From: a virus
DNA: 43,865 nt
Strand: one strand, 5' to 3'
Virus record (IMG/VR): IMGVR_UViG_3300046005_000514
Coordinates: 1-43,865 of that record
Positions 43,501 through 43,533 of the stretch are shown one piece after another. How positions within the stretch are numbered: position 1 is the stretch's first letter; every line of letters begins with the position of its first letter. The translations under genes and the position numbers were made by a program. A model generated the notes under the pieces. It was not told the DNA's origin and ran no database searches. It saw only the letters and a list, made by a program, of their open reading frames with translations.

Positions 43501-43501
<1 letters not shown>

Positions 43502-43533
43502 TGAGTATCGTCTTAGACGGAACACACCTTTAA
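43501..43533 (+). pseudogene. Truncated start of a fibre gene ([10 protein letters not shown], stop)
   Basis: Ten codons begin at an ATG overlapping the previous stop. MSIVLDGT matches the adaptor start MAITLDGT of the 31859 fibre and of many phage fibres, but a stop follows at codon 11. It is most simply the leftover 5' end of a lost fibre gene. A functional leader peptide is less likely. Confidence 0.6.

Follow-up and report, generated by a model that had tools for sequence, protein, structure and literature searches.

The window analyzed here is the whole 43,865-nt stretch of DNA of a viral record (IMGVR_UViG_3300046005_000514, positions 1 to 43,865). As listed in Table 1, its right-hand end carries a complete fibre gene, a ten-codon reading frame and the beginning of a further gene. 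The ATG of the short frame (43501–43503) shares one base with the TAA (43499–43501) of the fibre ORF, forming a TAATG overlap, and the ten codons end at another TAA (43531–43533). Reading the letters bore out this layout, which had been described in an earlier, sequence-only reading. A gene for a 2OG-Fe(II) oxygenase (40563–41135; PF13640, 5.7e-15) lies between two fibre genes of the window.

Table 1. Features at and around the ten-codon stub (positions in the window).
Feature	Position	Strand	Basis
Fibre gene (776 aa), the last complete one, with collagen-like repeats and a C-terminal S74 chaperone domain	41171..43501	+	Pfam PF01391 6.3e-08, PF13884 5.3e-09
Segment of 73 nt without alignment to the sister strain L219/L007 (628 nt there)	43470..43542	.	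blastn
Replaced fibre tail (last codons and stop), ENLTTRL-A-E-K type	43470..43501	+	degenerate pattern
Ten-codon 5' stub of a fibre gene	43501..43533	+	sequence reading, pattern scan, L006 match
23 nt that also open, without a mismatch, the intact 202-aa fibre-like gene of L006	43501..43523	+	exact match
Frame-shift point, 13 nt of L006 missing in the window	43523..43524	+	by eye
11 nt ACACCTTTAAA, the same as in L006 (where they encode TPLN of VTPLNG), out of frame with the stub ATG	43524..43534	+	
Leader of the next gene, common to L007/L219 and L013/L218, at which the variable segment ends on the right	43543..43577	+	
Next gene, cut by the window end; PHROG 3603, function unknown	43578..43865	+	family searches on the complete L005 copy

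The label of methyltransferase that the sequence-only reading gave to the next gene could not be confirmed: no Pfam family was found at 0.001, and PHROG 3603 was the only assignment (E 5.2e-82). Apart from that reading, the label rests on a glycine-rich motif. Relatives of this gene were found at 87 loci, 80 of which were kept; the upstream DNA of the best 35 was inspected, and the other 45 were covered by a scan for the leader.

Within the window, the degenerate fibre-start pattern ATGRSNATHNYNYTNGAYGGNAC occurs at two places, 31859 and 43501, and its largest count in 100 dinucleotide shuffles was 0. The likeness of the stub to the fibre start MAITLDGT at 31859, which had been pointed out before, is real, but the nearest relative is elsewhere: the closest intact start is that of L006, of the MxIVLDGTANTVTPLNG type, and not MAITLDGTTGITTPG. 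The exact 23-nt start was found in two contigs of the viral collection, L005 and L006, in scans that may leave out records very near the window. L006 is another phage, and there the 23 nt open an intact fibre-like gene, also with a TAATG overlap. Compared with L006, the window has the same 23 nt (23/23), lacks 13 nt, has the same 11 nt ACACCTTTAAA, and is no longer similar beyond that point. The 13-nt gap shifts the frame, which accounts for the codons H, L and the stop that close the stub, and in the shifted frame ACACCTTTAAA of the window still reads TPLN. A pattern combining an ATGAGY start, a gap of 0–25 nt and the TPL codons returned L005 and L006 only in the viral collection, the pattern leaving out starts with other Ser or Ala codons. 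The similarity that continues past the gap in another frame, together with the intact counterpart in a relative, upholds the view that the ten codons are the left-over beginning of a fibre gene. The remnant part of that claim stood; its other part, a body deleted from this gene, is not required, as the loss may have happened outside this phage, with the stub arriving already truncated from a donor.

Fibre-like genes with the MxIVLDGTANTVTPLNG start occur in several environmental phages (L006, L209/L211/L216, L210, L212–L215 and L217). The window has in common with them the same first 23 nt (in L006) and the next 11 nt, whereas its copy is devoid of the 13 nt, the body and the frame. The VLDGTANTVTP pattern was present in 13 contigs, three of which hold 19-codon forms and nine ORFs of 181–366 aa, the last running off the contig end. 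Mean ungapped identity among genes with this start was 0.89 over nt 1–57, 0.75 over nt 58–105, 0.55 over nt 106–180 and 0.43 over nt 181–300 (28 pairs of 8 genes, one per population, with the L212 contig stopping at about nt 249 of its gene). The start cassette is thus common to genes that vary further along. Among named phage records, the 32-aa start cassette had no match and the 121-nt junction had 58 weak ones (best E 0.1 among the matches listed), while 70 records contained distant relatives of the L006 fibre, at less than 60% identity. Genome contigs gave three matches to the start pattern, no fibre-like one among them.

An intact gene behind a similar fibre tail was found in other phages. 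In L209, L211 and L216, which are 100% identical where they overlap and hence represent one population, a full 366-aa fibre-like gene starting MAIVLDGTANTVTPLNGALG overlaps, through a TAATG, the end of a fibre with the similar tail ENLTIRLAALENK. The window has this arrangement in broken form. The fibre-tail pattern itself was found in 15 contigs, several of which belong to the same population; besides L005, the ORF ends at this point in 13 of 14, the exception being L171. The tail in the window is 92–93% identical to those of L172, L173 and L176 over 40–41 nt. In L209 and L170 a GGAG lies 8 nt 5' of the ATG; the window has GGAA. The lost frame and the GGAA in place of GGAG would fit a sequence without selection on the stub.

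Comparison with two relatives delimits the exchanged DNA and agrees with the earlier proposal of a recombination edge, since both alignments begin at 43543 and have different DNA leftward of it. The sister strain L219 (which includes L007) matches the window by blastn at 96.4% over 37916–42652 and 97.6% over 42809–43469, and resumes at 43543 to the window end at 96.9%, so that alignable flanks enclose a differing middle. Its last fibre has 703 aa, against 776 aa in the window, and is without some 156 nt at 42653–42808. In the middle it has 628 nt, where a fibre tail of its own is accompanied by two genes, of 70 aa and 94 aa, and by an ORF of 21 codons. A third relative, L013/L218, is different on the left, but its alignment begins at the same base on the right (identity to the window 78.7% in the first 319 nt, to L005 96.1% over 4151 nt), reproducing the right side of the picture. 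The edges are thus at about 43461–43469 on the left, where the last exactly shared run with L219 ends at 43461 by eye and at 43469 by blastn, and at about 43543 on the right. The left edge falls in an IQEQQAMI stretch that is also present in the fibre ending at 33499 (34/37 nt match). The replaced segment thus takes in the final codons of the upstream fibre, and it seems that they and the stub came as one piece. On the right, L007 and L013 have 14 nt more of the leader in common, at which the window differs; the edge in the window is therefore not exactly theirs. It looks as if the break in the window had removed part of the leader, but the DNA here is rich in A.

The DNA left of the leader differs among the relatives. 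In L007, the 21-codon ORF MATNYVGYDYWDYGYAEGDTR (3890–3955) directly precedes the shared leader. It resembles the start of an incomplete gene of L165 (12/15 residues; the E value of 7e-5 refers to the local set alone), and among named phages neither the short ORF nor the L165 gene had a match; the likeness, which would point to a start stub from another gene family, is no more than suggestive. In L013, a 44-residue frame without ATG, GTG or TTG (2070–2204) lies left of the leader and is weakly similar to repeat proteins in L184, L166 and L174 (E 0.001–0.01). If these likenesses are right, which is again only suggestive, the same leader is preceded in each of the three relatives by a fragment of a different gene. 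The 94-aa gene is present in the window at 38737–39021, with a VanZ-like match (0.0082) below the curated cut-off. It stands before two fibre ORFs in the window and after the last fibre in L007, a similar gene lies directly 3' of the fibre in L006, and it seems to move with fibre modules.

The shared leader contains the string TATATAATGGAGTRATTTAAT, which a scan found in L005, L218 and L219 only; none of these three contigs has an intact second fibre directly before it. The search for a full fibre gene at this place, which the sequence-only reading had suggested, was accordingly negative before the same leader (in the three contigs) but positive behind a similar tail, in L209/L211/L216. With no intact fibre found before the leader, both the earlier state of the locus and the direction in which it changed are inferred. 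The 17-nt leader in its L007 form was not found in the window at up to 3 mismatches; by eye, the copy in the window differs from it at 4 places. We also considered the leader as a promoter, but a promoter scan around the junction yielded 0 sigma-70-like sites against 2.0 expected, which lends the idea no support beyond conservation. Two close strains carry different ORFs with like beginnings, MNHIHHIIPKHMGG, after the same 259-aa gene (L005:3158–3769 and L007:6508–7083). These ORFs look HNH-like, and their location is a possible mobile insertion site.

Truncated starts were also found in other phages. Among the 28 viral contigs with the pattern ATGAGYATHGTNYTNGAYGGNAC, closed ORFs of at most 11 codons are present only in L005 (10 codons) and L195 (11 codons); the ORF has 54 codons in L189 and L203, 88 in L194 and 147–692 in 21 contigs, and runs off the contig end in L187 (after 12 codons) and L193 (after 94). 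With a wider motif, 3 of 40 distinct starts (window/L005, L195 and L170) belong to closed ORFs of fewer than 30 codons, the 40 starts coming from loci found by search and not from a random sample. On the minus strand of L195 (1–1135), an 11-codon truncated fibre start and its stop are followed by the gene for a 262-aa homing endonuclease (PHROG 314, 8.3e-28; NUMOD3, 6e-15), behind which lies a GTG fibre start, MSILLDGTLGITTPG. In L170 and L179, which are identical, and in L174 (94% identical to them over 1680 nt), the tail ENLTTRLAALENK is followed by MAIVLDGTANTVTPLRGVI and a stop, 19 codons in all, and a 103-aa ORF begins one nucleotide later. This 19-codon stub breaks after ACACCTTTAA, within one nucleotide of the break in the window. 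Such near-identical breaks in two lineages may reflect a preferred exchange point or descent of both from one truncated form, or, the DNA being AT-rich, they may coincide by chance.

The evidence from relatives bears on four other explanations of the stub. It might be a working mini-ORF, at whose TAATG the ribosomes finishing the fibre restart, to be passed on to the next gene. The overlap is in place in the window, and the 19-codon ORF of L170/L174, with a GGAG before its ATG, sits tightly between two genes, ending one nucleotide before the ATG of the second, which leaves room for a role of such stubs. Translational coupling nevertheless seems very unlikely for the window, where 44 nt separate the stub from the next ATG, and where the next gene has its own GGAG and a leader that is also found in relatives devoid of such a stub; the GGAG of the stub itself is altered. 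Conservation of the peptide with its stop across divergent phages, as expected of a functional peptide and named in the sequence-only reading as the observation that would contradict a fibre remnant, was not seen: of the 28 contigs with ATGAGYATHGTNYTNGAYGGNAC, L005 alone has the exact peptide and stop. We set aside the 19-codon stub as evidence for a conserved peptide, because its sequence and stop are unlike those in the window and because L170 and L174 hardly differ in this region and so cannot reveal selection (2 mismatches in 4200–4604, 0 in 4605–4664 and 0 in 4665–4999).

We regard as very unlikely that the stub is the footprint of a homing endonuclease once lodged in the fibre start and later lost along with the fibre. 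L195 attests to such a route, but by reading we found that the 44 nt separating the stub from the next gene (43534–43577) contain no endonuclease, the break in the window comes after TPL and not after GTT, and the sister strain has other genes at this place. As to an assembly artefact joining two phages, the segment is indeed short and mosaic. However, L005, a separate contig (perhaps from the same sample as the window), matches the window at 100% over 969 nt, a stretch that spans the entire junction and includes the stub; it continues past the window end, and its first three bases differ from those in the window. An assembly error is therefore highly improbable. A chance ATG followed by a few favorable codons would come to mind for a frame of only ten codons, but it is refuted in practice, its probability being negligible given the shuffles and the 23 and 11 nt that match an intact gene in order.

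The stub is, in our judgment, very probably a non-functional recombination scar of fibre exchange, an assignment made from sequence comparison. An ancestor or donor would have had a fibre ending in ENLTTRL...K, a TAATG overlap and a second fibre starting M(A/S)IVLDGTANTVTPLNG. On the left, DNA with this tail and second start would have recombined in via the conserved IQEQQAMI of the S74 tail, at about 43461–43469; on the right, the second fibre would have been cut just past ACACCTTTAAA and its beginning fused, at 43543, with the leader that precedes the next gene. A deletion of 13 nt, earlier or later, would have put the stub out of frame, leading to HL and the stop. A short TAAA match may have been used at the joint, although the joint is A-rich and so short a match could be due to chance.

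Exchange of this kind has precedents. According to a report on Alteromonas phages A5 and V22, fibre regions recombine, also between unlike phages (PMC10579305), and a study of a Litunavirus tail fibre indicates that four of five domains look recombinant, the N-terminal end not (PMC9786124). The likeness to these systems lies in recombining fibre regions; the trace in the window differs in being a ten-codon stub at the outer edge of the cluster and not a hybrid fibre. Compared with the free-standing homing endonucleases of T4-like phages (PMC2988022), L195 is alike in having an endonuclease gene behind a truncated fibre start, whereas the window has none in the 44 nt behind its stub. A literature search of titles and abstract openings found no account of such a fibre-start stub.

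A bolder idea is that the TAATG-coupled start cassette behind a conserved fibre tail serves as docking homology for dropping and regaining whole fibre bodies, stub and intact states alternating within a population. We consider this unlikely; if it were true, the breaks of two lineages after ACACCTTTAA would mark a preferred exchange point. The probable scar that fibre shuffling left in the window is plain to see, yet it amounts to ordinary phage mosaicism with no new mechanism, new in its detail and ordinary in its kind. Taken with the relatives and the intact counterpart, it shows the bounds of the exchanged DNA, namely the IQEQQAMI tail, the start cassette and the leader of the next gene, and such short conserved stretches could help to find other fibre swaps.
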